Below, piece after piece: positions 3,408-22,033 of a stretch of DNA of 23,261 bases. The DNA comes from a virus: positions 1 through 23,261 of IMG/VR virus record IMGVR_UViG_3300043409_000666; one strand, 5' to 3'. The notes below the pieces were generated by a model. It was not told the DNA's origin. It saw only the letters and a program-made list of their open reading frames with translations, and made no database searches. The translations under genes and the position numbers were made by a program. Each line of letters opens with the position of its first letter. Within the stretch, counting starts at the first letter, position 1.

Positions 3408-3737
3408 ATGCCCGAGGGACTGAAGGCTGTGGAGTCAGCCTTGGATCGTGTTGCCTCGCGCATGACCCCCGTCATCCAGAACCGCGCTCTTGAGGCCGGA
3501 TGGCCCGACGATGTCGCCGCCAGCCTCTCCTTGATTCGCACTGCGAACGGCATCGGCGTCCACGTTGATTCGGCGTTCCGTCAGGTAGCGGCAGATCTGG
3601 AGTACGGATCGGCGAGCACCACACCTCGATCCGCCCTGTCCACGATGTACTCCCCGCAGACCAAGAAGATGATGGGCTCTCTGGCCCGTGACTCCATGGA
3701 TGAACTCATCGACCGGATGAAGGGGATGTTCTCGTGA
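3408..3737 (+). CDS. Small tail/head-completion protein
   Basis: This 109-residue, largely helical protein has no membrane segment. The ATG is preceded by AGGGG about 8 nt upstream. Its size and place, first in the tail module and just before a second connector and the sheath, fit the HK97 gp10-like or tail-completion group, but I see no diagnostic motif. The stop overlaps the next start (GTGA). Codons for I-R-T-A-N at 3534-3548 hold the first copy of the 13-bp palindrome, and a half-site (TGCGAA) lies directly before its ATG. Confidence 0.6.
   Translation: MPEGLKAVESALDRVASRMTPVIQNRALEAGWPDDVAASLSLIRTANGIGVHVDSAFRQVAADLEYGSASTTPRSALSTMYSPQTKKMMGSLARDSMDELIDRMKGMFS
3535..3547. repeat. 13-bp palindrome TTCGCACTGCGAA, copy 1 (exact)
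   Basis: Exact match to TTCGCANTGCGAA, centre C. It lies inside the 109-residue gene, read as xTT CGC ACT GCG AAx. One of seven dispersed copies; see findings. Confidence 0.85.
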
Positions 3738-4420
3738 CCCGTACTCCTGTCCCCACCTATCCCTCCGAGGGCTTCCTCCTCGATGAGGACCGCGCCCTGC
3801 GCGACCTCATGAAGGGGATCGTGGTCTCTGACAACGAAAACTCCTCCCGCAACGTCGAGGCGTGGTTCGGACACCCCGACATCGAACTGCGTGAGCAGAA
3901 GTACCCGTACATCACCGTCGATCTGCTGGAGATCCAAGAAGGCACCGACCGGGTGCATCGTGGTGATCTCTGGCTGCCGGACGAGCCAGCGCCCCATGGA
4001 CCCCCGGACTGGTGGGGCTACCCGGCCCAGCAGCCGAACTACCAGTGGCTCATGGAGATGCCGACCCCCGTGGACCTGATCTATCAGGTTGGGACGTGGG
4101 CTCGGAACCCCCGCCACGACCGGCAGATCCTGCGCGCCTGCATCACGCGTGGGCGCACCACTCTTCGCGGCGGCGTGATCGCCACGGCTGACGGCTACAC
4201 CCGCCGTCTCGACTATCTGGGTCACATCAAGCGTGACCGTGAAGAGGGCGGCAAGCGCCTCTTCAACAACATCTTCCGCTTGCGGATGTCATCGGAGGTT
4301 CCCTACGGAGTCCTCGAAGAGTTCCGGACGGTGGAGGCGGTGCATGTCAATGTCCGCACTCGTGCAGACGAGTGGCGCGGGGCAGAAGCCCTCGACTCGG
4401 TGATTGTGACGGAGCAATGA
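3734..4420 (+). CDS. Putative tail terminator / neck protein
   Basis: This 228-residue protein starts with GTG in a 4-nt overlap with the previous gene, so the two are probably translationally coupled. It is soluble and mixed alpha/beta, with a Pro/Trp-rich middle (residues about 85-120) and the pattern YPYITVDLLEI near residue 57. Tail terminator proteins that cap the tube at the head end commonly sit immediately before the sheath gene in myoviruses, and that is the basis for the call. No catalytic motif is visible, and a second head-completion protein is equally possible. Confidence 0.55.
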   Translation: MTRTPVPTYPSEGFLLDEDRALRDLMKGIVVSDNENSSRNVEAWFGHPDIELREQKYPYITVDLLEIQEGTDRVHRGDLWLPDEPAPHGPPDWWGYPAQQPNYQWLMEMPTPVDLIYQVGTWARNPRHDRQILRACITRGRTTLRGGVIATADGYTRRLDYLGHIKRDREEGGKRLFNNIFRLRMSSEVPYGVLEEFRTVEAVHVNVRTRADEWRGAEALDSVIVTEQ

Positions 4421-4454
4421 TCGGCCTGTACGCATACTCGAATGGAGAAGTCTG

Positions 4455-5918: not shown

Positions 5919-5922
5919 TCCA

Positions 5923-6573: not shown

Positions 6574-6594
6574 GCACACGACAAGGGAGCACAG

Positions 6595-7401
6595 ATGACG
6601 ACAGTGAGCATCAACGATCCATCGATCCAGAAGGTGATCGAGGAGGCCAACCGGGATGCGTACGCAGCCCCAGACGGCCCCACGGTCGAGGATCCACCGG
6701 ATCCGGTGTTCAGGTTCGCCGCTGGCTACATGACGGACGAAGGGGCGTGGACCAAGGAGTTCGAGGTCCGCGAACTGACTGGTCGCGACGAGGAGGCGCT
6801 CGCTCGGATTCCCGATGTCGGGCGCTCCCTCGTGGCGATGATCGAGCGGGGAGTCGTTCGGCTGGGCCCGGACCCGGCCACACCTGAGCGACTGGACAGC
6901 CTGTACGGCGGGGACTGGGACACCATCCTGCTGGCAGTCCGTGCGGTCACCTTCGGGGAGGAACTCGAACTCAAGCCGACCTGCAAGGGGTGCGGCTCCT
7001 CCTACGAGGTGACGGTCAACATCCTGAAGGATCTCCCTGTTCGCAGTGCGAATCCGGAGGATCTTGCGTGGACCGTCGAGGGTCGGCGACACGTCTACGA
7101 GATGACGCTGTACTCCGGGGCTACCCAGCGCACCATCTTCGACATGATGGGCGAGAACAAGTCCATCGCGGTCATCAACACAGAGGTGCTGCACGACAGC
7201 ATCCAGCAGATCGACGGGATGCCGGTGCTGGGCCGGGACACCGTTCGGGACATCCCGCTGGGAGACCGACGAGCACTGCTGGACTCGATTCAGGAGCGAC
7301 GGGTGGGGCCAGACCTTCAGGGGGTGAAGATCAAGTGCCCCACTTGCAGCCACGAGCAGGGGTTCCCTCTCAACGCTGCCGCCCTGTTTCAATGGAACTA
7401 A
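6595..7401 (+). CDS. T4 gp26-like baseplate / tail assembly chaperone protein
   Basis: This 268-residue protein lies between tube and tape measure, the usual place of tail assembly chaperones. A helical part (WDTILLAVRAVTFGEELELK) leads into a zinc-ribbon half C130-x2-C133, and a second half C248-x2-C251 ends the protein; together they can bind one zinc. The pattern (aliphatic helix, then SYG/TFG-E-x-LEL, then CxxC, VTVN-I-LKDLPV) resembles the T4 gp26 baseplate family. Its last codons read CTG TTT CAA TGG AAC TAA, and an open frame without a start follows in the +1 frame, so it probably has a longer frameshift product. The 13-bp palindrome lies at 7040-7052 inside the V-R-S-A-N codons. Confidence 0.8.
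   Translation: MTTVSINDPSIQKVIEEANRDAYAAPDGPTVEDPPDPVFRFAAGYMTDEGAWTKEFEVRELTGRDEEALARIPDVGRSLVAMIERGVVRLGPDPATPERLDSLYGGDWDTILLAVRAVTFGEELELKPTCKGCGSSYEVTVNILKDLPVRSANPEDLAWTVEGRRHVYEMTLYSGATQRTIFDMMGENKSIAVINTEVLHDSIQQIDGMPVLGRDTVRDIPLGDRRALLDSIQERRVGPDLQGVKIKCPTCSHEQGFPLNAAALFQWN
7040..7052. repeat. 13-bp palindrome TTCGCAGTGCGAA, copy 2 (exact)
   Basis: Exact match, centre G, inside the gp26-like gene and read as xTT CGC AGT GCG AAx. It is 3505 bp from copy 1. Confidence 0.85.
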
Positions 7402-7561: not shown

Positions 7562-9404
7562 GGACCCGACGTTCAGTGGGATGAGCAGCACTGGCGACGC
7601 CGCTGAAGCCTTCGCCAAGGTCACGTCCCAGATCAAGTCCGACATGGCGGCGATGGAGAGGTCCGCCAAGAAGATCGAGCAGCATCTAGGCAAGGCGTCC
7701 AAGTACTCCCTTGGGGGAGGTGGCGTAGGCAGCGCTGACAAGGGCTCTGGGGGTACGGGGGACGCAGCCCCCGCCTTCACCGGATCCTCGCTGGGCGCGA
7801 TCTCGGTGTCCCAGTTGGGCGGGGCAAAGGGCGTGGGCTACGGCGCTGCCTTCAGCGGTGGAGGCATCGCTGGGGCTCTTGGAGCGTTCGGGGGCGGGGG
7901 GTTCTCAGGAGGCATGGCTGGTGGCCTCGCCTTCGCTGGTCTGCCTGATCTGGTCATGCGCCCAGAGCGTGCCCTGAACATGGAGGGTGCTCGGTTCGGG
8001 ATGGCTCAGGCCACCGGATCGTTCGGCACCTTCCAGAACATGATGAACACGGCTCGCAACCAGTTCAACGTGCAGAACGAGCAAGCGTTCATGAACACCA
8101 TGGTCTACGGCACCCAGCGCATGGGCATGGTGGGTCTGGCCGGTGGGGAGCAGCGGGCTGCCTCGCAGATCGGTGGGTACAACACCCTCGCTGGGATGGC
8201 GGGCATCGACCAGTCTGCGGTGCCGGGAGTCATGGGGTCCATGAACTCCGCTCAGGCGTACTACTCCTCCATGGCTGCTGGGGTGCAGACGAGGAACCCA
8301 GTGACGGGGGAGTTGCTCGGCATCGAGAGTCAGGTCAACCAACTCTGGGGATCCGCTGGGATTCAGGGGATGGGGCAGAAGCAGGCCCTCGATCAGATCG
8401 ACATCAACTATGGAATCGGGTCCGCTGGACGCGCCCAACTTGAGCAGATGTACGGCGGAGACCAGAACGCCGTCAACATGGTCGTAGAGGGTCTGCGTAT
8501 CCGGGCCCGTCAAGGCGGGGATCCTCTCAAGGAGAACCAAGTCCAAGATCAGGTCAAGGGCAAGGCTGGTGGTCTCGGTTCGGAGTACACGCAGGGCATG
8601 GAGGGAACGCGAGGGCTGGAAAGTTCCAAGATGGCGATGGGGGCGGAGTACCTCAACGACGCCACCGCTGGCATCGAAGAGGCTGCCAAGCACATCACCA
8701 ATGCGGTGGACCTCCTCACCGAACTGGAGGGTCCTCTCCGCGACATGGTGGGGGCCTACACCACGATGGCTAACCAGATGGATGTCTTCAAGACGGAACT
8801 CCCCAGAGCCACGGACGGAGTCACCTCCTTCTTCACGGGCCTTCCCGGACTGCTCACGTCCTTCATCATGGGCTCGTTCGGGAAGTCCATTCTGGGTCGT
8901 CTGGGGATCAGTGCTGGAGCCAGCCTTCTCGGGCCTGCTGCTGCCGCTGTCGCTCCAGTAGCCGCTTTGGGTGTTGGGATCGCAGGCGTGACGGCTGGTG
9001 TGGGTCTGGCGGGCAAGTGGGCAGTCAACAGGTTCACTGACTACGACGAGCACAAGGGTGCCAAGGCGAACAAGGCCCTCGCGGAGAAGCCCTACGTCCC
9101 CCGCGCTTCCGGGTACGGCTCCTACTCCAAGGGCGAGTGGTTCGTGGAGTCCGATCAGGTCGCTCAGATCCACTACGGCGAGATGGTGGTCCCCAACCGG
9201 ATCGCCACGGCTGTGCGCGAGGAACTGGCCGTGGGAAAGACCTCTCCGGTAGCCAAGAAGGAAGGCACCATCGTCAACATCAACTTGACGATCCAGAAGG
9301 CGTCAGACCAAGAGGCTGTGTACTTCGCTCAGAAGGTCAAGCGACTGATCGAGGATGACCGGGAACTCATGTCGATTGGGTCCGGGAGGATGGGCTATGC
9401 GTGA
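7554..9404 (+). CDS. Tape measure protein
   Basis: This 616-residue protein is expected to set tail length and leave through the tube at infection. It begins with GTG behind a good GAGAGGTGAG site. A short helical start (KVTSQIKSDMAAMERSAKKI) is followed by Gly-rich low-complexity sequence (about 53-130), long helical segments, a hydrophobic block at about 450-490 that could insert in a membrane, and a C-terminal part with the common GEMVVPNRIA motif. Position after the chaperone and the composition are the basis for the call. It is short for a tape measure; at roughly 1.5 angstrom per residue it implies a tail near 90 nm, which is inference. It has no built-in peptidoglycan hydrolase; those lie in the next two genes. 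Confidence 0.8.
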   Translation: MAEDPTFSGMSSTGDAAEAFAKVTSQIKSDMAAMERSAKKIEQHLGKASKYSLGGGGVGSADKGSGGTGDAAPAFTGSSLGAISVSQLGGAKGVGYGAAFSGGGIAGALGAFGGGGFSGGMAGGLAFAGLPDLVMRPERALNMEGARFGMAQATGSFGTFQNMMNTARNQFNVQNEQAFMNTMVYGTQRMGMVGLAGGEQRAASQIGGYNTLAGMAGIDQSAVPGVMGSMNSAQAYYSSMAAGVQTRNPVTGELLGIESQVNQLWGSAGIQGMGQKQALDQIDINYGIGSAGRAQLEQMYGGDQNAVNMVVEGLRIRARQGGDPLKENQVQDQVKGKAGGLGSEYTQGMEGTRGLESSKMAMGAEYLNDATAGIEEAAKHITNAVDLLTELEGPLRDMVGAYTTMANQMDVFKTELPRATDGVTSFFTGLPGLLTSFIMGSFGKSILGRLGISAGASLLGPAAAAVAPVAALGVGIAGVTAGVGLAGKWAVNRFTDYDEHKGAKANKALAEKPYVPRASGYGSYSKGEWFVESDQVAQIHYGEMVVPNRIATAVREELAVGKTSPVAKKEGTIVNINLTIQKASDQEAVYFAQKVKRLIEDDRELMSIGSGRMGYA

Positions 9405-10701
9405 CAACCCATCGTCTGGCGGGGGCAGCATCACGATCACGAGCCCTTCCTACTCACCCACAGCCGGTCCTACTACAGGGACCAGTGATGCCTCGGGCGG
9501 AACCGGTACGGCGGAGATCCAGAACTTCGATGCGTCGGGTCTCCCCTTCCGGTTCAACCCTCCGATGCACAAGATGTCGCGGCTGGTGCGTCCGGACCTG
9601 ACTGGGGCCTCCCCGAAGAGTTCCTTCGCCCGGTTCTACAACGAGGAGCACAACACCTACGACTCCGATTTCGCAGTGCGAAACGGGAACGGCAAGACGG
9701 GGTTCGAGAACCTCCGACTAGGTCGCATCGTCATGGACGACATGGCGATCACTCGGGGGATCATCGAGGGTGGCAAGAGGTACGGCTTCCGGTTCCTCTA
9801 CAACCCGGCGGAACTCAGCGGGACCCTGAACGTGGGAACGTCGTTCATCCCTGACCAGCGGGCTACCAACACTGCTGTCCTCCAGAGCGGTCTGGAGACG
9901 ATCACGTTCGAGGTGATGCTCAACCGGATCCCTGATGTGACCAGCAAGGCGACGACCTCGGACTACTCCCCGCAGATCTCGAAGGATGATCTGAAGCAGA
10001 TCAAGGAGCGAGGGACCCACTACGACCTCGACTTTCTGTACCGCTGCGCGAGCGGGGTTCACAACACGAGGGCCCGACAGAAGACTGGAGACATCGGAGT
10101 CCTTCTACCGAACCCCTGCCGACTGGTCCTTGGCCCCTATACCTCTCGTGGGGCTCTGGTCAGCGTGGCAGTGACCGACACCCTCTTCTCGGGGGACTTG
10201 GTTCCCACCGTCTCCTACGTCAACATCACCTTCGCCCGGTTCCTGAACATGGCCCCCTCAGATCAGACGAGGCTGGAGTCCTACGGGATCACTCGGGAGG
10301 GTGGAGCAGAGACCAGCACTGTCGATCCGCCCTCCAGTGTCGGCGGGTACGGGAAGTCCCTGACGGGCAAGTCCGTCTATGACTACGCGAAGGGCGCGGG
10401 GTTCTCCTCCACGGAGGCGGACACCATGACGAAGATCGCCAACAGGGAGTCCAACTGGAACACGCACGCCCACAACGGCAACGCGGGCACCGGGGACAAC
10501 TCGTATGGACTGTGGCAGATCAACATGCTCGGGTCCATGGGGACCTCCCGGCGTAAGGCGTTGGGGATCTCCAACAACGAGCAACTGTTCGATCCTGCGA
10601 CCAATGCGCGAGCAGCCCGGATGATCTACAAGAGTCAGGGCTACGGGGCATGGTCGGTCTACAAGAACGGCTCCTACAAGCAGGTCGCGAAGACGTGGTG
10701 A
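9397..10701 (+). CDS. Tail protein with C-terminal lysozyme-like (transglycosylase) domain
   Basis: This 434-residue protein starts at an ATG with GGGAGG 7 nt upstream, overlapping the tape measure end by 8 nt; a further in-frame ATG at 9355 lies inside that gene and has no clear site. Residues about 45-300 form a structural domain (FRFNPPMHK, LRLGRIV, YGFRFLYNPAEL) shared with the next gene. Residues about 325-434 form a lysozyme-fold domain with the catalytic-type Glu351 in IANRESNW and the following GDNSYGLWQINM, as in soluble lytic transglycosylases. It should sit near the tail tip and open the peptidoglycan locally during DNA entry. Copy 3 of the 13-bp palindrome lies in it, in a different codon frame from copies 1 and 2. 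Confidence 0.85.
   Translation: MRDNPSSGGGSITITSPSYSPTAGPTTGTSDASGGTGTAEIQNFDASGLPFRFNPPMHKMSRLVRPDLTGASPKSSFARFYNEEHNTYDSDFAVRNGNGKTGFENLRLGRIVMDDMAITRGIIEGGKRYGFRFLYNPAELSGTLNVGTSFIPDQRATNTAVLQSGLETITFEVMLNRIPDVTSKATTSDYSPQISKDDLKQIKERGTHYDLDFLYRCASGVHNTRARQKTGDIGVLLPNPCRLVLGPYTSRGALVSVAVTDTLFSGDLVPTVSYVNITFARFLNMAPSDQTRLESYGITREGGAETSTVDPPSSVGGYGKSLTGKSVYDYAKGAGFSSTEADTMTKIANRESNWNTHAHNGNAGTGDNSYGLWQINMLGSMGTSRRKALGISNNEQLFDPATNARAARMIYKSQGYGAWSVYKNGSYKQVAKTW
9669..9683. repeat. 13-bp palindrome, copy 3 (exact, extended to 15 bp)
   Basis: TTTCGCAGTGCGAAA, with the 13-bp core at 9670-9682 and one further symmetric T/A pair. It is read as TTC GCA GTG CGA Axx, so the codon frame differs from copies 1 and 2. 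It is 2630 bp from copy 2. Confidence 0.85.
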
Positions 10702-10705
10702 TGAG

Positions 10706-12001
10706 ATGAGGATGCCAGTCGATCCCGGAGGGTCAATCGTAGAGTCGGAGGCGGCGGAGGTAACCCCAGCGTCAGACGCAGAGAAGTCCGCTGACATCTC
10801 TCACAAGACATTCCGGTTCAACCCCCCGATGCACAGCGCGAACCTCTCGGTACGCCCGGACATGGGGAACGTGGGGCAGACCGCCTCCCAGTTCTACGAC
10901 GAGAAGACTGCGCCGTCGGGCTACACGGACAAGTGGGCTAAGGAGGGTCTGGGCACCCTGCGTCTGGGTCGGATCATCCAGCACTCTGTCGTCCCCGGAC
11001 CTGCTGGACAGATGTCCCGTCGATGGGGATTCCGGTTCCTCTACAACCCGACGACGATCTCGACGGCTGCATCGCGAAACGACTCCTTCGTCATCGACCC
11101 CCGCAGTGAAACCAATCAGGTCGTCTCGGGTGTGAGCCAGAACTTCCAGACCGTCTCCTTCACCGTGCTGCTGGACCGGCTTCCGGACATCGCCTCAGGG
11201 ATACCCAATGGTGGGAAGAACCAGTACTCTCCCAGCCTCAGCAAGTCAGACCGGGATGGGATCCTCCGGTACGGAACCCACTGGGATCTGGAGGCCCTGT
11301 TCAAGGTCTGCAACGGCGACTGGAACCTCACCGACCGGGGCAAGACCGCCAACATCGGGGTCCTCATGCCCAGCAACGCACGTCTCATCCTCGGGTCAGG
11401 AGTCAACTTCTACGGCTTCGTCATGGGAGTGACGTGGAAGGACGAGATGTTCCTCGGGAACATGATCCCGGTGCGCACTCGGGCGGACATCACCTTCCGC
11501 CGACATGTGGACATGACCATCGATCAGGCGAAGGCTGCCTTCCCCGGAATGGTCTCCGACGCGACGGATTCCCCGGCTGATCCGAACTCGGGTAGCGGAG
11601 ACAGTTCTGTTGGGAACAATCGGGATGCACCCGTGCCCGGCCACAATCGGGTCACGACTGGGTTCTATGGGTACTCGGGCCATAACGGGTGGGACTACGC
11701 CGTCCCCACGGGGACATCTGTCCACGCGACGCATGGTGGGGTGGTCGAGAGGATCCGGTACCTCACCAACTCGTACGGGAAGCATGTGTTCGTGCGGTAC
11801 GGGAACGTCCAGATGATCTACGCCCACCTGAGTGCCATCAACTCAGGTCTTCGGGAGGGCGCATCCATCAACTCTGGGGACTACATCGGCAAGTCCGGGA
11901 GCACCGGGAGATCGACTGGTCCTCATCTTCACTACGAAGAGCGAGTGTCCGGAACCTCCCGGATCCCACAGTTCGCGAACAACACCGGAAGGGTCCGCTG
12001 A
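10706..12001 (+). CDS. Tail protein with C-terminal M23 (LytM-type) peptidase domain
   Basis: This 431-residue protein is a paralogue of the preceding one: FRFNPPMHS, LRLGRII, WGFRFLYNPTTI and FTVLLDRLPDI align with its N-terminal domain in order. The C-terminal domain is instead an M23 metallopeptidase with all zinc-binding and catalytic positions present: H326-N-G-W-D330, and H407-L-H409 in GPHLHYE. M23 enzymes cut peptide cross-bridges, so the pair of tail proteins should attack both glycan and peptide bonds. A Ser/Asn/Gly linker (about 290-310) joins the domains. The ATG at 10706 follows the previous stop by 4 nt; a second ATG at 10712 is possible. The stop overlaps the next ATG by 1 nt. 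Confidence 0.88.
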   Translation: MRMPVDPGGSIVESEAAEVTPASDAEKSADISHKTFRFNPPMHSANLSVRPDMGNVGQTASQFYDEKTAPSGYTDKWAKEGLGTLRLGRIIQHSVVPGPAGQMSRRWGFRFLYNPTTISTAASRNDSFVIDPRSETNQVVSGVSQNFQTVSFTVLLDRLPDIASGIPNGGKNQYSPSLSKSDRDGILRYGTHWDLEALFKVCNGDWNLTDRGKTANIGVLMPSNARLILGSGVNFYGFVMGVTWKDEMFLGNMIPVRTRADITFRRHVDMTIDQAKAAFPGMVSDATDSPADPNSGSGDSSVGNNRDAPVPGHNRVTTGFYGYSGHNGWDYAVPTGTSVHATHGGVVERIRYLTNSYGKHVFVRYGNVQMIYAHLSAINSGLREGASINSGDYIGKSGSTGRSTGPHLHYEERVSGTSRIPQFANNTGRVR

Positions 12002-12264
12002 TGATCACCAGTCGCTCGCGCTACGTGGACGGATCCATCATCCCGCAGGAGGACGGCACGGTCGCCGTTCGCCGGAACTTCGCTACCGTCACGATCCAGC
12101 CCATGTTCTACACATGGGGTGAGTACGACCGTCTGGATCGCATCGCCTCGCGGTACCTCGGTGATCCGCTCCTGTGGTGGAAGATCATGGACGCGAACCC
12201 CATCATCCAGAACCCCTCGGACATACGACCGGGGACGCAAATCCGGATACCCGCCGATGTTTAG
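12001..12264 (+). CDS. LysM-like tail protein X / baseplate hub accessory
   Basis: This 87-residue protein contains a compact LysM-type fold: YTWGEYDRLDRIASRYLGDP, then LLWWKIMDANPIIQNPSDIRPG and a terminal IRIPAD. The W-x-I-x-x-x-N-x-I-x-x-P-x-x-x-x-P-G pattern is the signature of tail protein X and T4 gp53-like proteins that help join tube, hub and wedge. It starts at the ATG of TGATG and overlaps the next gene by 8 nt. Peptidoglycan binding is possible but a structural role is more usual at this position. Confidence 0.88.
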   Translation: MITSRSRYVDGSIIPQEDGTVAVRRNFATVTIQPMFYTWGEYDRLDRIASRYLGDPLLWWKIMDANPIIQNPSDIRPGTQIRIPADV

Positions 12265-13444
12265 CCTCTTCCCCACGAGGGTCTCGTTCCCACTGACACC
12301 GCTTGACCGGCTCGACATCACCAACCTCGTGGTGCTGCGTCACGAGTACCAGATGGACACGGCGAGGATCACCCTCAAGGTGTCCTACGACGACATCAAC
12401 CAGTACGTGGGGGCGGGCAGCCCGATCTTCGTCCGGTGGGGGTCATCACTGAGGTTCGATGAGTTCGTCGGGTACGTCCACTCGTTCCGACCAGTGACCG
12501 ACGGGATCACGAAGCGCACGGAGATCGTCGCGATCTCTGCCGCCTACCCGATGGTCAACGAGAGCGGGCGGACCTTCACGAACGTCGGGATCCACAACGT
12601 CGCTCAGGAGATCGGGGACACCTACCGGTTCCAAGTGGAGACCGATCCGCACCCCTACATCCATGACCAGATCCTCCAGCGCGGTGATTCCGACTGGGTT
12701 CTCCTGTCCCGTCTCGCGGAGCAGTGGGGGTACGTCCTCCTGATGGATGGGGTCACCTTGGTCTTCCGCCCCCTGAAGGACGTGCTGGCGGAGAACTACC
12801 GGTACTCCTTCAACGCCAAGACCAGCGTCGCCGGAACCCTCGATCCGCTCGCCAACGTCCTCTCCTTCGAGGAGTCCTACTCTGCGACCGGGGACGAGCC
12901 TCTGACCGTGTCGTCCGTGCAGGGTGTGGACCCGATCAGTGTGGAACTGGTGGACCAGAGGAACATCGTCCCCGTTGCCGGGGTGTTCGAGGAGATCGAC
13001 TCCTCGCGGTCAGTGACCTCCAACTTGGAGGGTGAGTTGCGCGCGGCAGGCGTGACCACACGTCGTCAGTTCCCCTATGAGGCGCGGGCTACCTTCCGGG
13101 CGGCGTACCGGAAGAAGCCCTTCGACGTGTACCGGATCTTCAACGACAACCAGTACCGAACGTGGGTAGTCCGCTCGGTCCGCCATACGGTGACCGGCGG
13201 GGACTACATCTCTGAGATGATCCTTGGGTCGGATGGGCTGGACCACTCCAGCAAGTCTCGGGACTCCCAGTTGGATATCAACACTCTGCTCAAGCAGAGT
13301 CGTAGGGCCCGTCGCCCCTACCCGGTGATCATCGATTCTCGCCCCTACGTGGAAGGGGCGGGCGCAAGCGTTGTCGTGCCAGATCAACGATGGAAGGCTC
13401 AGGTCATGACCGTTCCCATCCAAGACCGGGAGGTGTCCGCATGA
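12257..13444 (+). CDS. Baseplate hub protein (gpD / gp27-like)
   Basis: This 395-residue protein starts at ATG TTT AGC inside the end of the LysM gene; an upstream in-frame ATG would extend far into that gene. Its size and place between tail protein X and the gp25-like wedge fit the P2 gpD / late-control family that forms the trimeric hub under the tube. In sequence, an N-terminal beta-rich domain (ARITLKVSYDDINQYVG, FVRWGSSLRFDEFVGYVHSF), a helical insertion with DSDWVLLSRLAEQWGYVLLM and VTLVFRPL, and a C-terminal beta part with TFRAAYRKKPFDVYRIF agree with that family. The tail ends in a Pro/Arg-rich stretch. It overlaps the next gene by ATGA. Confidence 0.85.
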   Translation: MFSLFPTRVSFPLTPLDRLDITNLVVLRHEYQMDTARITLKVSYDDINQYVGAGSPIFVRWGSSLRFDEFVGYVHSFRPVTDGITKRTEIVAISAAYPMVNESGRTFTNVGIHNVAQEIGDTYRFQVETDPHPYIHDQILQRGDSDWVLLSRLAEQWGYVLLMDGVTLVFRPLKDVLAENYRYSFNAKTSVAGTLDPLANVLSFEESYSATGDEPLTVSSVQGVDPISVELVDQRNIVPVAGVFEEIDSSRSVTSNLEGELRAAGVTTRRQFPYEARATFRAAYRKKPFDVYRIFNDNQYRTWVVRSVRHTVTGGDYISEMILGSDGLDHSSKSRDSQLDINTLLKQSRRARRPYPVIIDSRPYVEGAGASVVVPDQRWKAQVMTVPIQDREVSA

Positions 13445-13842
13445 GCCTCGCAGTGAAGTTCCCCTTCACCATCCAGTCAGGATCAGTGGCCGTCACGGAC
13501 AACCCGACGGAAGCGGTCGGCTCCATGATCGTCTTCTGCTTGGGCACGATGATCGGCGAGCGAGTCATGCGTCCGACGTGGGGCGTGGACATCATGAACA
13601 CGATCTACTCCGTCGGTGGAGATCTGGACACGGCGATGCCAGAGGCCGTCGAGAACGCCTTCAAGAAGTGGTTCCCGGACTACGAGCCACGGGAGATCAC
13701 GATCACGCGGAGCCCTGACCGTCCCACCTACGTGGATGTCGAAGTTCGGTTCGGCGCTTATGACAGCGAGGTGGACATGACTGTTCGCGTCGGTACGCAA
13801 CTGCCCGGTGGCACTGAGATCTACACGAACGAGGGGTTCTGA
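13441..13842 (+). CDS. Baseplate wedge protein (GpW / gp25-like)
   Basis: This 133-residue protein has the family hallmarks: an early aliphatic strand and helix (AVGSMIVFCLGTMIGERVMRP), the W-G-V-D-I motif, the central helix ETV-like VENAFKKWFPDYEP and the following REITITRSPD strand. These proteins make the inner wedge that links the sheath to the rest of the baseplate. The length is typical. It starts at the ATG in the ATGA overlap with the hub gene and ends in TGATG with the baseplate J gene, so the hub, wedge and J genes are tightly coupled. Confidence 0.92.
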   Translation: MSLAVKFPFTIQSGSVAVTDNPTEAVGSMIVFCLGTMIGERVMRPTWGVDIMNTIYSVGGDLDTAMPEAVENAFKKWFPDYEPREITITRSPDRPTYVDVEVRFGAYDSEVDMTVRVGTQLPGGTEIYTNEGF

Positions 13843-15353
13843 TGGCTGTCTCTCCGCTCCTGCCCGTCATCGACTACACGAGTCGGGACTACGAGTCGAT
13901 CCGCGCGGATCTCATCCGCCTCATCAGGGCCCGGATCCCTACGTGGACGGCAGAGAACCCGTCTGACTTCGGCGTTGCCCTCGTGGAGGGCTTCTCCTAC
14001 GCCGTGGACGGTCTGCACTACTACCTCGACCGGGTAGCCAACGAGGCGTACCTGCCCACGGCAGTCCAGCGGGAGTCTCTGTACGCCATCGCGGCCATGT
14101 TCAACTACACCCCCCGGCGCGCGGTGCCCTCGGAGGTCAACCTGACATTTCGCAATGCGACTCAGGCGGAGGTGATCCTCCCCGCTGGGACCCGCGTGCA
14201 GGCCAGCGTCCCCGGACAGTCCGGCGCGATCCTGAAGAACTTCGAGGTCCAGTCCGACCACACCCTGCCTCCGGCTTCCGCCACCTCAGAGACCACTCTC
14301 GAAGACGTGCCCGCTGTAGAAGGTCGTACCTACACAGACGAGACAGTGGGCATTTCCAATGGCTTCGTAGGACAGCGGTTCTTCCTCCCTCGAACCTCCG
14401 TTCTGGAGAACACGATCCGGATCACCACCCAGTTGGGTGAGGTCACCATGGAGTGGGAGGAGGTCCCGACCCTTCAGGACTACGCCACTCCGACCGACAA
14501 CAAGTTCGAGACGATTGCGCAGACCGACGGCTCCACCGTCGTCCGCTTCGGAGATGGCCTGCACGGCGAGGTGCCTCCCCTGCACGCGGTCATCCGGGCC
14601 ACCTACCGGGTTGGCGGGGGCACGGAGGGCAACGTCCCGGCCAACACCATCAACACGATCATCGAGCCGGTGATGTACGGAGTCAGCGTCTCCAACCCGG
14701 AGCCCGCCACGGGTGGACTGAACGCAGAGAGTCTCGCCAGCATCCGGTCCAACGCAGCGAAGTCCTACCGGTCTCGCGACCGGGCGGTGACGCTGGGGGA
14801 CTACGAGTCCCTCGTGGTCACGGGCGTGCCGGAGATCGACAAGGCCAAGTCGGTGGGCAACAACGCCTCCTCGGTCACCGTGTACGTCGCTCCTGTGGAT
14901 GACGGAACGAAGCGTCCGCCGCTCACGCAGGCTCTGGACGATGCAGTCACCTACTACCTTGAGCAGCGGGCAATGGCAGGCGTGACCATTCAGGTCTTCT
15001 CCGCGTCCTACGTCCCGATCTTCCTGTCCATGACCGCCCACTGCACCGCCACCGCCCGACAGGATGAGGTCAGCGCAGCGGTCAAGGCTCAGTTGGACTA
15101 CTTCTTCCGCTACCAGAACACGGACTTCGACCAGACCATCACGGTCCACACGCTCTACTCCCAGTTGGCCCAGATCGACGGTCTGGACTACGTGTCGATC
15201 ACCCGGCTGAGTCTGGCCTTCGTGGACCCGGACATTGAGGTCATCACGATGGATCAGGTGGCTATCAACGCAGTCCCGTACTTCCTGTCCGACGGTCTGG
15301 AGGGGGGCAATCCGCTCCTGACCTTGACCATGTCCGGGGGCATCACGGCATGA
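13842..15353 (+). CDS. Baseplate J-like protein (Mu gp47 / P2 gpJ / T4 gp6 family)
   Basis: This 503-residue wedge protein has the expected start (PVIDYTSRDYESIRADLIRL), the long N-terminal helical segment with NEAYLPTA, a beta-rich middle (VILPAGTRVQ, TVVRFGDGLHGEVPP, IRATYRVGGGTEGNVPANTI) and the conserved AKSYRSRDRAVTLGDYESLV block at about 305-325 followed by DKAKSVGN. The FGDG and GG-x-x-GNVP motifs are diagnostic. It pairs with the gp25-like and gpI-like neighbours to form the wedges that trigger sheath contraction. Copy 4 of the 13-bp palindrome lies at residues F-R-N-A-T. Confidence 0.95.
   Translation: MAVSPLLPVIDYTSRDYESIRADLIRLIRARIPTWTAENPSDFGVALVEGFSYAVDGLHYYLDRVANEAYLPTAVQRESLYAIAAMFNYTPRRAVPSEVNLTFRNATQAEVILPAGTRVQASVPGQSGAILKNFEVQSDHTLPPASATSETTLEDVPAVEGRTYTDETVGISNGFVGQRFFLPRTSVLENTIRITTQLGEVTMEWEEVPTLQDYATPTDNKFETIAQTDGSTVVRFGDGLHGEVPPLHAVIRATYRVGGGTEGNVPANTINTIIEPVMYGVSVSNPEPATGGLNAESLASIRSNAAKSYRSRDRAVTLGDYESLVVTGVPEIDKAKSVGNNASSVTVYVAPVDDGTKRPPLTQALDDAVTYYLEQRAMAGVTIQVFSASYVPIFLSMTAHCTATARQDEVSAAVKAQLDYFFRYQNTDFDQTITVHTLYSQLAQIDGLDYVSITRLSLAFVDPDIEVITMDQVAINAVPYFLSDGLEGGNPLLTLTMSGGITA
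14149..14161. repeat. 13-bp palindrome, copy 4 (one mismatch)
   Basis: TTCGCAATGCGAC matches 12 of 13 positions; the last base is C instead of A. It is read as xTT CGC AAT GCG ACx inside the baseplate J gene and is 4479 bp from copy 3. Confidence 0.7.
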
Positions 15354-16576: not shown

Positions 16577-16582
16577 TGAGCG

Positions 16583-17266: not shown

Positions 17267-17271
17267 TCTGA

Positions 17272-18699
17272 ATGCCCCAGAGCATCTATCAGGGACCGAC
17301 CTACATCGGGGAGACGATCCAGACCACCCCGAACACCACCCCCGTGTGGCAGAAGTCCCCGGTGAAGAACTGGGTCAACGGACAGTGGATCTGGTTGAAC
17401 GCTCCCATCGGGCCGGTGGACTTCGCACTGCGAAATCTGGCCTTCGACCGGGTGATGATCGAGATCTTCGACAGTCAGAACTTCGACCACGTCGGGGCCT
17501 ACGAGGTCTACCTCAAGACCGGCGGTGGTGCGTTCGTCCGACGCTCCGATCTGGACATCCCAGACGACACCTCGACGGGGTGGATCACTGGACTGTCCGC
17601 GACCACCACCTACACAGTGCGGATCAAGGTCAACCTGTTCAGTGGGGGTCAGACCCCCGACAGCGATCAGACCTTCACCACCCCAGCCAACCCTGCTCCG
17701 GCTGCTGTGATCGATCTGCGTACCCCCGCCCAGACCAACGCGTGGCTCGACCTCGCGTGGACCAATCCGGCAGGCTCATCGGCCACTTCCTACAACGTGT
17801 ACTGGGGAAGGAACGGGGAGGGCCCGGCTGGGGTCGTCAACGTGGGCATGGCGACCACGTACCGCGTGGCTGGGCTCAATGAGGACACGGCGTACTGGTA
17901 CTTCGTCCGGGGGAAGAACGCCTCTGGTCTGGAGGGCCCTGACTCGAACCGTCTCCAGTGGGCCACCGGGTGGGGAGAGATACGACGTTTGGGCGGAGAC
18001 GAGCAGATCCAATGGAAGCCTCGTGAGTGGGGATCCTACCGACCGGACATCCAGTGGAGGTGGGCTCGGGAGAACGGGATCGTGGACCGGAATCCACACC
18101 TGTATCAGGGGTACTGGCCGGGTGACAACTGGCACGGTGCCTCGAACCCGTCCTCGAACCTTGAAGCAGGGAAGACTCGACGCTACTGGGGGACCGTCGT
18201 CTACACCGCCTCCGATCTCCGTGACGCTCTGAACGCCAAGCATGGTGCTGGAGTCGGAGACAACATCGTCATGAGCATGGTGGCGCTCCGCCGCGCCTAC
18301 CGGCACACGGATCCCGGCAACATCGCTGCTCAGGACATGGTCTGGCACCTGACGAAGGCCAACCCGTTCAACAGCGGTCAGCCTCCCACCTACAGCAAGT
18401 ACTCCGGAGGACCGGCAATGAAGGCTGGGGAGGTCAGGCAGTCCTACCCTCTTCCAGCCTCCTTCGGGACGAAGTTGCTCCGGGGATGGGACGAGGGAAC
18501 TGCCGTCAACGGGATCGTCCTGCACCGGTCCGACAACGTCACCAACGGGTACGGAGCCGCAGGATACGGGCGCTGGTCCGGGCACCTCCTGAAGGACCCG
18601 AACACGTCTGGTACGTGGAGGTACAGTGACCTGACCCTGCTGATGGAGGGCTCATGGAATGTCCTCGTTCGAGCCTATAGGGGGCCGTACCAGTGGTGA
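17272..18699 (+). CDS. Minor tail / fibre protein with fibronectin type III-like domains
   Basis: This 475-residue protein has two tandem fibronectin III-like modules: residues about 45-140 (ending TTTYTVRIKVNLFSGG) and about 145-235 (LDLAWTNPAGSSATSYNVYW, LNEDTAYWYFVRGKNASG). The C-terminal half (about 240-475) is Trp/Tyr-rich, of no fold I can name, and likely binds the cell surface. FNIII modules are common in fibres of tailed phages of Gram-positive hosts. It starts 5 nt after the previous stop and overlaps the next GTG by 7 nt. Copy 5 of the palindrome lies at F-A-L-R-N. Confidence 0.72.
   Translation: MPQSIYQGPTYIGETIQTTPNTTPVWQKSPVKNWVNGQWIWLNAPIGPVDFALRNLAFDRVMIEIFDSQNFDHVGAYEVYLKTGGGAFVRRSDLDIPDDTSTGWITGLSATTTYTVRIKVNLFSGGQTPDSDQTFTTPANPAPAAVIDLRTPAQTNAWLDLAWTNPAGSSATSYNVYWGRNGEGPAGVVNVGMATTYRVAGLNEDTAYWYFVRGKNASGLEGPDSNRLQWATGWGEIRRLGGDEQIQWKPREWGSYRPDIQWRWARENGIVDRNPHLYQGYWPGDNWHGASNPSSNLEAGKTRRYWGTVVYTASDLRDALNAKHGAGVGDNIVMSMVALRRAYRHTDPGNIAAQDMVWHLTKANPFNSGQPPTYSKYSGGPAMKAGEVRQSYPLPASFGTKLLRGWDEGTAVNGIVLHRSDNVTNGYGAAGYGRWSGHLLKDPNTSGTWRYSDLTLLMEGSWNVLVRAYRGPYQW
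17422..17434. repeat. 13-bp palindrome TTCGCACTGCGAA, copy 5 (exact)
   Basis: Exact match, centre C, read as TTC GCA CTG CGA Axx. It shares its codon frame with copy 3 but not with the other copies. It is 3273 bp from copy 4. Confidence 0.85.
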
Positions 18700-19760
18700 A
18701 TGTCCTAGCCGCCTCGACCGGAGCCATCGGCCTAGGGCCGTACGGCGACGAGTCTGAGCACACAGGCCCTCCCGCAGTCATCGTCTACACCCCGCCCTAT
18801 CGCGACTTCATGGCGATGGATGCTCGGTCAATCATGCTGACCCTGCTCCCCCAGCACTACAACCTGATCCCGAACCCGTCGTTCCGCGCGAACCTCACCG
18901 GATGGACTGTCTGGGGCATGGGCACAGCCGTGGACGCTGCGGTGTCGTGGGTGGGCAAGTCCATCGTGTGCGACGGCGCGGGTCACCTCAAGAGAATGGT
19001 CTACACGGGGCCCTTGGTCGGAACTCAGGAGAACCAGTGGGATCCCAAGAGGGGTGGTCCTGAGGCCACGTTCAGCGTCTACGCGAAGGGAGTGGGTGAG
19101 GTCCGTCTGTTGATGTCCGCCTACTACTCCACGGATCAGACCGACCTGACTGCTGGACCTCAGTACCAGAACCTGCCCACTTCTGCCAGCCCTGCCACAG
19201 CGCCCTCAGGGGTCCCGGCGCTGCTCGACAGCACCACGGGTCGGGTCTGGACCCTCATCTCCCCAGCGCCCTCCATCGCCCCGTTCTACGAGGACATCGG
19301 GCGGGGACCCGCAATTGCCAGTGTCACTGGGGAGTGGACCACCATCGAAGATGACGGGGACTGGCACCGCAACCTCATCCACACCTACGCCCGGATCTTG
19401 GAGGAGGAGGGGCAGATCTCCTTCGTGGGGGCGCGGTGGGTCGAGGTCACGGTCGAAGTTCGCAATGCGAATGGCCTGCGTCTGTCTGCCACCATGCTGG
19501 ACCCGACGGAGTACCCGGTGTGCGCCTACTTCGATGGGGGCATGACAGAGAGCCTCGCGCTCGATGACTTCCTGTGGGAGGGGGTCACGGACAACAGCGC
19601 CAGTTACTACTACTTCGACCGGGTACTGCGGGCCAAGTGGCTGCACGAGAACATCGGCTACGCCAAGCCAGCAGGTCGTCCGCACCAGATCTTCTTTGGC
19701 TCCTACTGGAGGCCCTACGTCGGGGCCACTGGAGAGACCAAGATTCTGGCGCTCACCTAG
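18693..19760 (+). CDS. Minor tail protein, carbohydrate-binding-like
   Basis: This 355-residue protein starts with GTG (a second GTG follows directly). Near residue 57 the sequence NLIPNPSFRANLTGWTVWG is the common opening of phage jelly-roll (CBM-like) modules, as in the gpI-like gene. The remainder is beta-rich with many aromatics (SYYYFDRVLRAKWLHENIGY) and a terminal strand. Together with the previous two genes it probably makes up the host-recognition apparatus. It is the last virion gene of the run. Copy 6 of the 13-bp palindrome lies at V-R-N-A-N. Confidence 0.65.
   Translation: MVNVLAASTGAIGLGPYGDESEHTGPPAVIVYTPPYRDFMAMDARSIMLTLLPQHYNLIPNPSFRANLTGWTVWGMGTAVDAAVSWVGKSIVCDGAGHLKRMVYTGPLVGTQENQWDPKRGGPEATFSVYAKGVGEVRLLMSAYYSTDQTDLTAGPQYQNLPTSASPATAPSGVPALLDSTTGRVWTLISPAPSIAPFYEDIGRGPAIASVTGEWTTIEDDGDWHRNLIHTYARILEEEGQISFVGARWVEVTVEVRNANGLRLSATMLDPTEYPVCAYFDGGMTESLALDDFLWEGVTDNSASYYYFDRVLRAKWLHENIGYAKPAGRPHQIFFGSYWRPYVGATGETKILALT
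19459..19471. repeat. 13-bp palindrome TTCGCAATGCGAA, copy 6 (exact)
   Basis: Exact match, centre A, read as xTT CGC AAT GCG AAx inside the minor tail gene. It is 2037 bp from copy 5. Confidence 0.85.
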
Positions 19761-19769
19761 ACTCCAAGG

Positions 19770-20182: not shown

Positions 20183-20398
20183 GTGGTATGGGCGACGCAC
20201 CGATACGACCCCTACTTGACAGATACGGAGGGGGCGTGGTGTAGGGTGTGCCCAGCCCCAAAGAGAACCGCCCCCCGGTTTCCCGAAGGGCGGTTCAGAG
20301 ACTGGGCCCGGTTGACGCCGGGTTCGCAGTCGAAACTGGAGAGTCCACCTCCAGTGCGATGTGCAAGAGCATCGTACAACAGGTGGCCTCTCCCTTGA
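20183..20398 (+). CDS. Small Cys-pair protein before the initiator (uncertain)
   Basis: This 71-residue frame begins at a GTG preceded by GAGGT with good spacing, and ends 1 nt before the ATG of the replication initiator, as expected for a coupled operon. The start MVWATHRYDPY, followed by WCRVCPAPKR, resembles the short actinophage proteins with an H/Y-x-P and C-x2-C pair, usually of unknown function. Against it: the C-terminal part lacks a second metal-binding pair, codon use is mixed, and three dyads lie within it. The frame is open further upstream (to 20126), but that part has AT-rich codons unlike the neighbours. Confidence 0.4.
   Translation: MVWATHRYDPYLTDTEGAWCRVCPAPKRTAPRFPEGRFRDWARLTPGSQSKLESPPPVRCARASYNRWPLP
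20216..20247 (+). promoter_or_regulatory. TTGACA ... TAGGGT promoter-like pair
   Basis: A perfect -35 hexamer TTGACA (20216-20221) is followed by TGTAGGGT (20240-20247). With TAGGGT as -10 the spacer is 20 bp, longer than normal; with TGTAGG it is 18 bp but a poor -10. It would start transcription at about 20254, upstream of the initiator, but inside the possible small gene. One of the two is probably spurious. Confidence 0.3.
20265..20296 (+). other. 9-bp stem-loop in the initiator leader region
   Basis: GAACCGCCC (20265-20273) pairs perfectly with GGGCGGTTC (20288-20296) around a 14-nt loop. No T-tract follows, so intrinsic termination is unlikely. It is followed by two shorter dyads, CCCGG/CCGGG at 20307-20322 and CTGGAG/CTCCAG at 20336-20354. 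The cluster could fold as a structured leader or mark a protein-binding region. Confidence 0.45.
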
Positions 20399-20408
20399 AA
20401 TGAGAGGC
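20386..20408 (+). promoter_or_regulatory. Hairpin spanning the initiator start codon
   Basis: GCCTCTC (20386-20392) and GAGAGGC (20402-20408) form a perfect 7-bp stem with a 9-nt loop. The ATG at 20400 straddles loop and stem, and AGGTGG lies just 5' of the stem. Translation of the initiator may depend on opening of this hairpin, for example by ribosomes finishing the frame that ends at 20398. Confidence 0.45.
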
Positions 20409-21320
20409 AAGAGATTGAGCCACGATTGGGTCGAGTACTCCATCAAGGAGTCTCCCTACACAGGTGCGACGTTTGCCGTCCACATGGTCCTCGCGCACCA
20501 CGCTGACAAGAACACCGGCATGTGCTGGCCCAGTCAGGACCTCATTGCCGAAGAGGCCCGTGTCACTGTGCGGACCGTCAAGAGGTCCATCAAGCAGATG
20601 TGCGATGACGGCTATCTGGAGCGGTCCTACCGCCACCGTCAGCGTCGGTACCGTCTTCTCGTATCCAACGGAGAGGGGACATGGGTGTCCCTTGAGAAGG
20701 GACATGGGAGTCCCTTGAGAGGGGACATGGGTGTCCCGTCAGAAGGGACACGGGTGTCCCTTGCATATAGAACCGTCACTGAACCGTCAGTAGAACCGTC
20801 AGTGGAACCGAAAAGCACCGGACCCTCCGGGCCCGGCGAAGGAGTAGACGTGAAGATCGGGAACCTCAGCGAGGACGCGGACATGCCGGAAATGGATGTC
20901 ACGCGGAATCCGAAGCGGAAGTTGCCGTTCAAGGCGGTCCCCCCGGTCGGCACCAACGACTGGCTGCTCTACCGGTTCGAGCAGGAGCGGGCACGGGCTG
21001 GGGTCCGGACCGGGAGGTACAACAAGGGTCACCTGAACCACACCTTCCGGTCCCTTCGGGATGATGACGGGATGACCAACGCGGAGATCGAAGTCCTGAT
21101 CCGCACCTTCTTCGTCCGTCACGGGGACGTGGCCCGGACCAAGGTCCGGGAGTGGGATCTCTCTTCGCTGTTCCGGCAGATGGTCCCCCAGTTGCAGATT
21201 CAGGCCAGAGACACGACCCGTGCCGTTCGAGACGGGCGCAAGACCACGACACAGAAGGGCAAGGAACTGAGCGGCGATCTTCTCGCTCGCTTCGGAGTAT
21301 CGAAGGATGATGACGAATGA
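20400..21320 (+). CDS. Winged-helix replication initiator (lambda O-type organisation)
   Basis: This 306-residue protein has an N-terminal winged-helix domain at about 9-85: FAVHMVLAHHADKNTGMCWP, then the helix-turn-helix SQDLIAEEARVTVRTVKRSI and a basic wing (RSYRHRQRRYRLL). A low-complexity linker (about 88-145) contains EPSVEPSVEP. The C-terminal domain (about 175-290) is helical and DnaD-like in style. The linker DNA carries four 23-bp iterons, so this is a likely initiator that binds an origin inside its own gene, as lambda O does. The ATG at 20400 was chosen because it lies 1 nt after the preceding frame; GTG at 20361 would add 13 residues, and TTG at 20415 is also possible. It overlaps the loader gene by ATGA, as expected for partner proteins. 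Confidence 0.78.
   Translation: MRGKRLSHDWVEYSIKESPYTGATFAVHMVLAHHADKNTGMCWPSQDLIAEEARVTVRTVKRSIKQMCDDGYLERSYRHRQRRYRLLVSNGEGTWVSLEKGHGSPLRGDMGVPSEGTRVSLAYRTVTEPSVEPSVEPKSTGPSGPGEGVDVKIGNLSEDADMPEMDVTRNPKRKLPFKAVPPVGTNDWLLYRFEQERARAGVRTGRYNKGHLNHTFRSLRDDDGMTNAEIEVLIRTFFVRHGDVARTKVREWDLSSLFRQMVPQLQIQARDTTRAVRDGRKTTTQKGKELSGDLLARFGVSKDDDE
20671..20762. repeat. Four 23-bp iterons, candidate replication origin
   Basis: Four head-to-tail units with exact 23-bp period. The dyad cores lie at 20676-20691, 20699-20714, 20722-20737 and 20745-20760. The core is GGGACATGGGTGTCCC (arms GGGACA and TGTCCC, 4-bp centre); unit 2 has one arm mismatch and unit 4 one change in the centre. The period is not a multiple of three, so each copy is read in a different codon frame and the repetition cannot be protein-driven. 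A short A/T-rich stretch (GCATATAGAA) follows. Confidence 0.85.
20771..20810. repeat. AACCGTCA direct repeats next to the iterons
   Basis: AACCGTCA recurs at 20771, 20782 and 20794, with a partial copy AACCG at 20806, at 11-12 bp spacing. It encodes the E-P-S-V repeat of the linker. Since most spacing is 12 bp (four codons) it may be a protein-level repeat, but one helical turn per copy would also suit a binding array. Confidence 0.6.
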
Positions 21321-22033
21321 CTGAGACCCAGAAGAAGAAGCGGTACTGGTACAGGCCGGATGGCTATGAGACCGATCACCTGATCGACTCCCTCTCCGAC
21401 GAGGAACTTCTCGACCATATGGGCGTCCCGCTGAAGTACATCCGGCACGCGGTCGCGATGCAGAACGATCTGCCAGATGAGGTGGAGTCGTGGTTGGCGA
21501 ACATGCCCTACGTCTACCGGCCCACCTTCGACCGGCTGGACAAGGACATGTGCGGCGTTGGTCTGGTCTTCTGGGGCGAGCCCGGAGGGCGGAAGACCAC
21601 CGTGGCGGCTGCCACCTTGTTGCGGGCGGTCCGACTGAAGACCCCCAACACCGACCCCACCGGACACAACTACACATGGCACGGGGCAGCGATGGGTCGC
21701 TTCGTGGACTGGCAGGAGGCCAGCGCGCTCTTTCGCAGTGCGAGTCGCAGCGAGGAGGACGAGATGGCGGCGGAGGAGGTCAAGAAGTTCATGAAGCCCA
21801 ACGGACCGGCGGTCCACCGGGCGGACTTCCTCATTCTGGACGACATCAGCCGCGAGCGGGCCACTGAGTTCAACATCACGGAGTTGCAGCGGACCCTCCG
21901 CCGTCGCGGGGACAATGGCTACCCGACCATCCTCACCAGCAACCGCCACCCGGACGATTGGGAAGAGGCGCATGGGGATGCCCTCTCCGGCTACATCCAC
22001 CGCCAGTTCCTTCCAGTCGAGTTCGCGCTGTGA
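21317..22033 (+). CDS. DnaC-like AAA+ helicase loader
   Basis: This 238-residue ATPase should load the DnaB-like helicase at the origin. It has a helical N-terminal part that may contact initiator or helicase (about 1-70), then the AAA+ domain: P-loop G87-E-P-G-G-R-K93-T-T, Walker B LILDD (D175, D176) and sensor-1 TILTSNRHP near residue 205. The third glycine of the P-loop is Arg92, unlike the usual GxPGxGK, which is odd but leaves Lys93 and Thr94. Length and fold match phage DnaC/DnaI-type loaders. It overlaps the initiator (ATGA) and the next gene (GTGA). Copy 7 of the palindrome, with one mismatch, lies at F-R-S-A-S. Confidence 0.85.
   Translation: MTETQKKKRYWYRPDGYETDHLIDSLSDEELLDHMGVPLKYIRHAVAMQNDLPDEVESWLANMPYVYRPTFDRLDKDMCGVGLVFWGEPGGRKTTVAAATLLRAVRLKTPNTDPTGHNYTWHGAAMGRFVDWQEASALFRSASRSEEDEMAAEEVKKFMKPNGPAVHRADFLILDDISRERATEFNITELQRTLRRRGDNGYPTILTSNRHPDDWEEAHGDALSGYIHRQFLPVEFAL
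21732..21744. repeat. 13-bp palindrome, copy 7 (one mismatch)
   Basis: TTCGCAGTGCGAG matches 12 of 13 positions; the last base is G instead of A. It is read as xTT CGC AGT GCG AGx in the helicase loader gene and is 2273 bp from copy 6. Confidence 0.65.

Follow-up and report, generated by a model that had tools for sequence, protein, structure and literature searches.

The IMG/VR virus record IMGVR_UViG_3300043409_000666, a fragment of 23,261 bases analyzed here at its full length (hereafter the window), carries a 13-bp palindromic word, TTCGCANTGCGAA, dispersed across its tail and replication genes in five exact copies and two copies with one mismatch. PHROG profiles run on the window proteins indicated a phage with a contractile tail, recognizing sheath, tube, baseplate hub and wedge, tail peptidase, and tail fiber, with an O-like initiator and then a DnaC-like loader past the tail genes; by our reading of its translation, an open reading frame (ORF) downstream of the loader is DnaB-like. 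Comparison at the DNA level with the GenBank phages of our collection gave no match to the window. The nearest relatives by protein were the Streptomyces myophages of the BRock group, with 36 to 38% identity in the sheath and, for two proteins taken from contigs downstream of the window, 36 to 37% (SNF2 helicase) and 34 to 35% (PolA); gene order in the BRock group and the window family also appears similar in our reading. By these comparisons, the window is a piece of an unclassified myophage distantly akin to Streptomyces phage BRock. A WhiB-like gene on a related contig points to an actinobacterial host, and the host of this phage group is thus probably actinobacterial.

An initial annotation had placed exact copies at 3535, 7040, 9670, 17422, and 19459 and 12/13 copies at 14149 and 21732, all within genes; each was recovered at its position, and all seven sites (7/7) fell inside ORFs. 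Along the window, with no strand assigned, these are site A (TTCGCACTGCGAA, exact, 3535 to 3547) within the ORF at 3408 to 3737; site B (TTCGCAGTGCGAA, exact, 7040 to 7052) within a baseplate-hub-like gene (6595 to 7401); site C (TTCGCAGTGCGAA, exact, 9670 to 9682) within an SLT/lysozyme-like gene (9355 to 10701); site D (TTCGCAATGCGAC, mismatched in its last base, C; 14149 to 14161) within the baseplate wedge gene (13842 to 15353); site E (TTCGCACTGCGAA, exact, 17422 to 17434) within a tail-fiber-like gene (17272 to 18699); site F (TTCGCAATGCGAA, exact, 19459 to 19471) within the ORF at 18693 to 19760; and site G (TTCGCAGTGCGAG, mismatched in its last base, G; 21732 to 21744) within the gene for the DnaC-like helicase loader (21317 to 22033). 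An extra copy with two mismatches (TTCGCGCTGTGAA, 22022 to 22034, likewise unstranded) is doubtful and was left out of the site count. The annotated spacing of 2.0 to 4.5 kb was measured as 2037 to 4479 bases. Of the seven sites, five share one codon frame and the other two share a second, also as annotated, and the codons described as scarce are so across 20 ORFs (TTT for 4% of Phe, AAT for 11% of Asn, and CGA for 11% of Arg).

Chance or a codon artifact as the source of these copies was ruled out by shuffling and by ranking of palindromes. At up to two mismatches, the window gave 8 matches, compared to a mean of 0.36 and a largest value of 3 in 100 dinucleotide shuffles. The codon-matched shuffle that the initial annotation had named as a test (2,000 synonymous-codon shuffles, within each of 20 ORFs) gave a mean of 0.037 exact copies and a maximum of 1, versus 5 observed, and at up to one mismatch a mean of 0.44 and a maximum of 4, versus 7 observed. 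Among window palindromes with arms of 5 to 7 bases and gaps of 0 to 10, TTCGCANTGCGAA ranked first.

Relatives, both near and distant, were gathered by searches with the sheath and other proteins. The word was carried at up to one mismatch by 9 of 12 related records (not by L008, L009, and L010), and its backwards control gave no match in any of the 12. Two contigs continuing downstream of the window held nine such sites in 26.8 kb (3300044261_000005) and six in 15.0 kb (3300049492_000016). A 14-base pattern scan of viral contigs matched at least 119 stretches; among the 119 listed, seven hold two or more exact copies, and two of those seven lie in related records already known (G001 and G005). 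The other five include G587 (3300045961_000112, also L306), with 15 exact copies in 42.1 kb, and G588 (3300045961_000077, also L308), with 8 exact copies in 23.2 kb; controls gave none in either. Another of the five, 3300049492_000024, has three exact copies; it is related at the DNA level to the head region of G587, with one site at an orthologous place. On L280, the site at 11411 is the ortholog of the G587 site at 20188, the site at 1470 is not conserved at the corresponding place in G587, and that at 6309 falls outside the aligned blocks. G587 and L007 have 127 identical terminal bases in common, as do L165 and G588, and a 777-base overlap at 94% joins L007 to L165; the four therefore represent ~85 kb of one lineage, spanning terminase, portal, capsid, tail, replication, and presumed early genes. 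This ~85 kb holds 29 exact sites (15 in G587, 3 each in L007 and L165, and 8 in G588), that is, many dispersed copies, as in a stoperator system.

The array is a trait of this phage family. No copy at up to one mismatch and no dispersed palindrome was found in the searched parts of BRock (100 of 112.5 kb) and LuckySocke (94.6 of 114.6 kb), ruling out the array as an ancestral trait of the BRock group. Among distant sheath relatives (L013 to L084, viral; L085 to L164, genomic), the word turned up once exactly, in L136, and once with a single mismatch, in L146, and both copies were taken as chance. A search of a literature collection for the word in its N form or its four spelled-out forms, covering main texts and these notations, found it in none of the papers there.

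The anatomy of the site was drawn from 35 sites treated as independent, one per ortholog group and gathered at up to one mismatch. Half-site positions 2, 3, 5, and 6 were invariant and position 4 nearly so, a near-invariance that is partly by construction, given how the sites were gathered; the outermost base was slightly relaxed. The word is a 6-1-6 odd palindrome whose center base is free, yet G or C in 31 of the 35 sites, and a purine is favored directly outside the 13-mer. The dyad is perfect, without the asymmetry and single orientation of L5-type stoperators, and 22 of 28 sites show no Watson-Crick pairing beyond it. Such an anatomy would fit a protein dimer that reads two half-sites and leaves the center uncontacted.

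Placement differed among contigs. In G587, 11 of 15 sites have no overlap with called genes, where 13% would be expected (binomial P of ~1e-7; genes called by our own script make up ~87% of the sequence once a gene-free repetitive stretch is left out), compared to one of eight in G588 and none of seven in the window. Some sites start right after a stop codon (e.g., G587 40400 and 41603 and G588 18552), and a promoter-like repeat (see below) stands just upstream of one site. Nine sites, mostly in gene gaps, stand 0.8 to 1.5 kb apart (~1.1 kb) in a divergent, presumed early region; the tail and replication regions have about one site per 3 kb; and in the G587 head region the sites are further apart, in one case by 9.9 kb. 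Spacing was more even than random in the window (coefficient of variation [CV] of 0.30, P of 0.005), G001 (CV of 0.32, P of 0.001), and G588 (CV of 0.20, P of 0.0001). Within the longest gap between sites, our script called no genes at G587 10644 to 13487, a stretch of GGACC/GGTCC-rich repeats that is probably a collagen-like tail fiber.

Orthologous places in related records revealed sites both kept and lost. Site A is kept in L166, L006, and L007 and absent from L008, L009, and L011; site B is kept in L166, L006, L007, L011, and L012 and reads TTCGAACTTCGAA in L008, L009, and L010. Site C is kept in L166 and L168, lost in L009, and partly decayed, in an intermediate state, in L165, and site D is kept in L169, L166, L168, and L174 and lost in L165 and L009. 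Site E persists in L169, L166, L170, L168, L165, and L174; site F in L169, L170, and at position 889 of G588; and site G in L169 and L170, with an exact counterpart in the G588 ortholog at 6051. All of sites F, G, H, I, and J are present in G588, amid 57 to 78% amino acid identity. Whether sites persist while codons drift, a check proposed in the initial annotation, was addressed by 28 ortholog comparisons (not mutually independent) in which codons for the same residue were identical in 78 of 99 cases at sites versus 3,905 of 5,887 elsewhere. This pooled figure is the fair one, since picking out the kept cases would be circular. The pattern is mostly all or nothing: where the word is kept, nearly all codons are kept (for site E in L174, 5/5 versus 54% elsewhere), and where it is lost, the codons diverge and the residues stay largely the same (for site D in L165, 0/4 same-residue codons kept). 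Loss of sites in relatives with the same amino acids, which the initial annotation had counted as evidence against its proposal, is thus seen, with residues largely the same, for some sites, such as D in L165, while others are kept, and it indicates turnover rather than fixation. Two exact sites in L165 and one single-mismatch site in L011, at places where the window has none, likewise indicate that sites turn over.

In the site B variant of L008, L009, and L010, both halves are altered alike, a symmetric double change, and a second copy of TTCGAACTTCGAA occurs at a shared place in L008 and L009. We read this variant, from its letters, as a possible switch of specificity in a related lineage. 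The use of two codon frames, the excess over codon shuffles, the conservation among orthologs, the sites in gene gaps of related contigs, and the dyad-symmetric change in a related lineage together bear out the earlier proposal that selection acts on the DNA and not on the protein.

The word was also sought in cellular genomes. It occurs exactly in 27 of 396 Actinomycetota genomes (28 copies versus 13 for the backwards control), in 22 of 296 genomes of the class Actinomycetes, a sample overlapping the first (22 copies versus 11), and in 23 of 151 Chloroflexota genomes (24 copies versus 22). It is nearly always single and never exceeds two copies in any sampled genome, which excludes a repeated host chromosomal motif or a HIP1-like word there; no host clade with many copies emerged from these samples, outside of which the actual host may lie. 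Two apparently unrelated phage contigs, the last two of the seven from the pattern scan, share no detectable protein with the window family in protein comparisons and yet carry the word. G708 (3300025030_000412; L355/L356), 24.1 kb at 41% GC, bears 12 sites, 6 of them exact and 6 with one mismatch, with a consensus near GTTCGYANTRCGAAC; 10 of the 12 lie inside ORFs, and the spacing of the sites is more even than random (P of 0.011). G589 (3300005295_000060; L310) has 3 exact copies at 4546, 16498, and 19234 in 20.5 kb; we read some of its translations as recombinase-like and small helix-turn-helix (HTH)-like ORFs.

Several phage-encoded proteins, among them ones with predicted HTH domains, are candidates for reading the word. 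The best placed, by position only, is a protein with an HTH and PF18780 encoded beside the divergent control region (G587 30826 to 31509). Both motif-bearing lineages with coverage of this region encode it (52% identity), and no counterpart turned up in the BRock group; among 50,697 phage records at an E value of 0.001, its only relative was a weak, partial match in Geobacillus virus E3. Its gene bears a site in both lineages, differently placed (exact in L280 and with one mismatch in G587), and its HTH has, in addition, a match to the KorA family that falls under the curated cutoff. Another candidate is a pair of adjacent ParB-like genes, A and B, on the minus strand between tail and replication genes of G588 (L308 1817 to 4179). 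A matches phrog_1033 (E value of 1.6e-13) and Pfam ParB_N (7e-5, below the curated cutoff), and B matches HTH_23 (2.1e-11) and phrog_1033 (5.6e-6). Against PDB sequences, all matches of A under an E value of 0.2 were ParB/Noc/Spo0J chains, all weak (0.029 to 0.18), and single-sequence AlphaFold prediction gave no confident model of A (mean predicted local distance difference test score of 40). A MerR-like HTH protein is an unlikely binder, since it has homologs in BRock and LuckySocke, whose searched parts lack the array.

Dispersed sites of comparable kinds are known from other systems. The conserved inverted repeats of phiC31 are dispersed inverted-repeat repressor sites in an actinobacterial phage, and the center base of the KorB operator OB is itself free. 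The stoperators of cluster A mycobacteriophages such as L5, D29, and Bxb1 are described as 13-bp sites with ~24 to 34 copies genome-wide and a lineage-specific consensus (PMC3029335, PMC5712189). With D29 as a yardstick, the published consensus at up to one mismatch gave 25 stoperators, 14 outside genes, 5 at edges, and 6 inside, crowded at one end of the genome; 24 of the 25 were oriented against the neighboring genes, and their spacing had a CV of 1.20. The parallel to L5 drawn in the initial annotation therefore holds in part: both are 13-bp sites dispersed genome-wide and crowded in one region, whereas stoperators are asymmetric and oriented to transcription and the present site is palindromic. 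Stoperators are also mainly intergenic, in contrast to the window sites (7/7 in ORFs) and to G588 (1/8 outside genes), though less so to G587 (11/15 outside); the sites of the window, G001, and G588 are more evenly spaced than stoperators, an evenness that G587 as a whole lacks; and stoperators are read by a known HTH repressor, whereas the present array has candidates only. KorB OB, an operator of plasmid RK2 described as 16 bp, acts both near and far from promoters (PMC11790492); the oligonucleotide used there has the same 6-1-6 odd palindrome as its core, and one lineage here has a ParB-like pair. OB differs in its letters, KorB is plasmid-borne, no KorA/OA partner was found here, and the ParB-like pair, as predicted binder, is missing at the corresponding place in the window lineage. 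SPBRE of Bacillus phage SPbeta, a 15-bp motif bound in about ten promoter regions by the tyrosine-recombinase-like repressor MrpR, resembles the present array as an element repeated throughout a phage genome, found by sequence and assigned a repressor decades later; unlike the sites here, it lies in promoter regions, and as far as the cited account goes, intragenic sites are not mentioned (PMC10516654).

The explanation that we favor, and to which we give an even chance of being right, is a stoperator-like silencing system in which a homodimeric protein binds DNA sequence-specifically at dyad-symmetric sites with TTCGCANTGCGAA as their core. This putative homodimer, probably phage-encoded, would occupy the phage genome at one site per ~1 to 5 kb, and by analogy to L5 stoperators, the bound dimers would block or damp transcription genome-wide, between genes in the presumed early region and within the long operons of late and replication genes, resulting in a silencing or shut-off system. 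The data establish the array, its spacing, its selection as DNA, and its dyad symmetry, the symmetric change in a related lineage included; binding by a protein dimer and a transcriptional effect are what we infer from it. Among the roles that the initial annotation had left open (repressor, silencing, packaging, or segregation), the data favor, and do not prove, a repressor or silencing array.

Several observations weigh against such silencing. D29 does not share the evenness of spacing seen in the window and G588, and over the whole of G587, a contig that mixes site densities and is not more evenly spaced than random, the spacing (CV of 0.99, P of 0.64) is nearly as uneven as in D29. The seven window sites, all intragenic, have no fixed place relative to gene starts, and no relation of promoter to site held across the array. 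Because BRock has been described as a virulent phage (PMC7453282), silencing during lysogeny cannot be taken for granted, and among the scanned proteins, which cover part of the ORFs, no integrase and no canonical repressor were recognized. The twofold excess of the word over its control in Actinomycetota means that it may have a weak host role. Finally, a lineage-specific repressor does not predict the sites in G708; 12 sites without a detectably shared protein fit a host factor or a horizontally shared regulator instead.

A host, actinobacterial DNA-binding protein exploited by several unrelated phages would account for the dispersal of the word in G708 and G589 and for its copy numbers of about twice the control in both actinobacterial samples. 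We nonetheless regard this as rather unlikely: no sampled genome (the true host possibly lying beyond them) exceeds two copies, the searched parts of BRock and LuckySocke are without the array, and the L008-to-L010 lineage uses a different half-site. Also unlikely, in our judgment, is that the sites load a ParB/KorB-family protein (ParB-like A/B) and that this protein then coats the genome or slides along it, with segregation, compaction, or silencing at long range as its function. The two adjacent ParB-like proteins of G588, the weak but uniformly ParB/Noc/Spo0J matches of A, and a site overlapping codons 4 to 8 of A speak for it, as do the regular spacing, which suits even coverage, and the KorB operator oligonucleotide, which contains TTTAGCGGCTAAA, also a 6-1-6 13-mer (PMC11790492). 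Nevertheless, the ~2.9 kb with the A/B pair is present in G588 only and is absent at that place from the window, G001, and L170, which share sites; gain and loss are unpolarized. A ParB-family protein in cis was seen only in G588 among the carriers, the other contigs being fragments; tblastn found no further A or B among the loci then collected; the site in the gene for A is no more than other genes have; and no ParA was recognized among the scanned proteins. On a contig of a Chloroflexota metagenome-assembled genome (G573 contig; L181 1491 to 3902), a ParB_N-ASCH gene is accompanied by two exact motif copies, one ~8 bases past the stop codon. This gene was not taken as evidence, because the 2.8 to 4.0 kb around five of its orthologs contained a single copy, with two mismatches, and none closer to the word.

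The sites could also act in RNA, as a hairpin (UUCGC-ANU-GCGAA) for termination, processing, or RNA binding. Two early-region sites do lengthen, with G-U pairs, by 10 and 15 further pairs into long stems, one site in G588 lengthens by 5, some intergenic sites come after stop codons, and the L008 change would likewise keep a stem. Even with G-U pairs, however, 25 of the 28 sites gain at most three further pairs, in addition to the lack of Watson-Crick extension noted above; the stem letters are nearly invariant over the 35 sites (a collection biased toward this) with no covariation, and the would-be loop center is free; and the sole terminator-like match in the scanned early region is not a site. 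An RNA role is therefore very improbable. A set of recombination, packaging, replication, or other structural sites would explain genome-wide, roughly regular spacing regardless of gene function, as in the window, G001, and G588. This, too, we consider improbable, as the replication iterons are separate and of different sequence and recombination signals such as Chi are asymmetric.

Other elements were noticed alongside the array. Tandem iterons lie inside the O-like initiator gene in the window (20671 to 20762) and in L308 (4965 to 5106), with different sequences (GGGACA-N4-TGTCCC in the window versus AGCGAC-N6-GTCGCT in the G588 phage); by analogy, they may mark a lambda-type origin. In the divergent early region of G587, a promoter-like repeat, CCTAACCCGCGACC (up to three mismatches), occurs at 32009, 32303, 32414, 33334, and 35463, with TGTA ~15 bases after it (GTAC-like in the fourth copy), and a second repeat, CCGCAGTAAACGCCGC (up to one mismatch), occurs at 34326, 35357, 36974, and 40155, in early-region gene gaps and genes. 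Also in the early region, L306 15528 to 19183 encodes consecutively an AAA_5 ATPase, a protein without a family match, and a weakly VWA/CoxE-like protein.

Sequence alone has thus been enough to define an exact site of DNA recognition that this uncultivated phage group uses dozens of times. The array predicts a DNA-binding protein whose specificity differs between related lineages, as in heteroimmune stoperator systems, and the site is a ready probe with which to fish for that protein. The sharing of the motif with an unrelated phage, if real, would suggest a host factor in common or control by a mobile system. It is possible, if on balance unlikely, that this near-regular, largely intragenic palindrome is a site code common to unrelated phages, a genome-wide address read by a conserved host or horizontally shared protein, perhaps a ParB/KorB-like clamp. 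If so, the phage chromosome would be organized or silenced as a whole, like a plasmid or nucleoid, and a related lineage would have switched its specificity.

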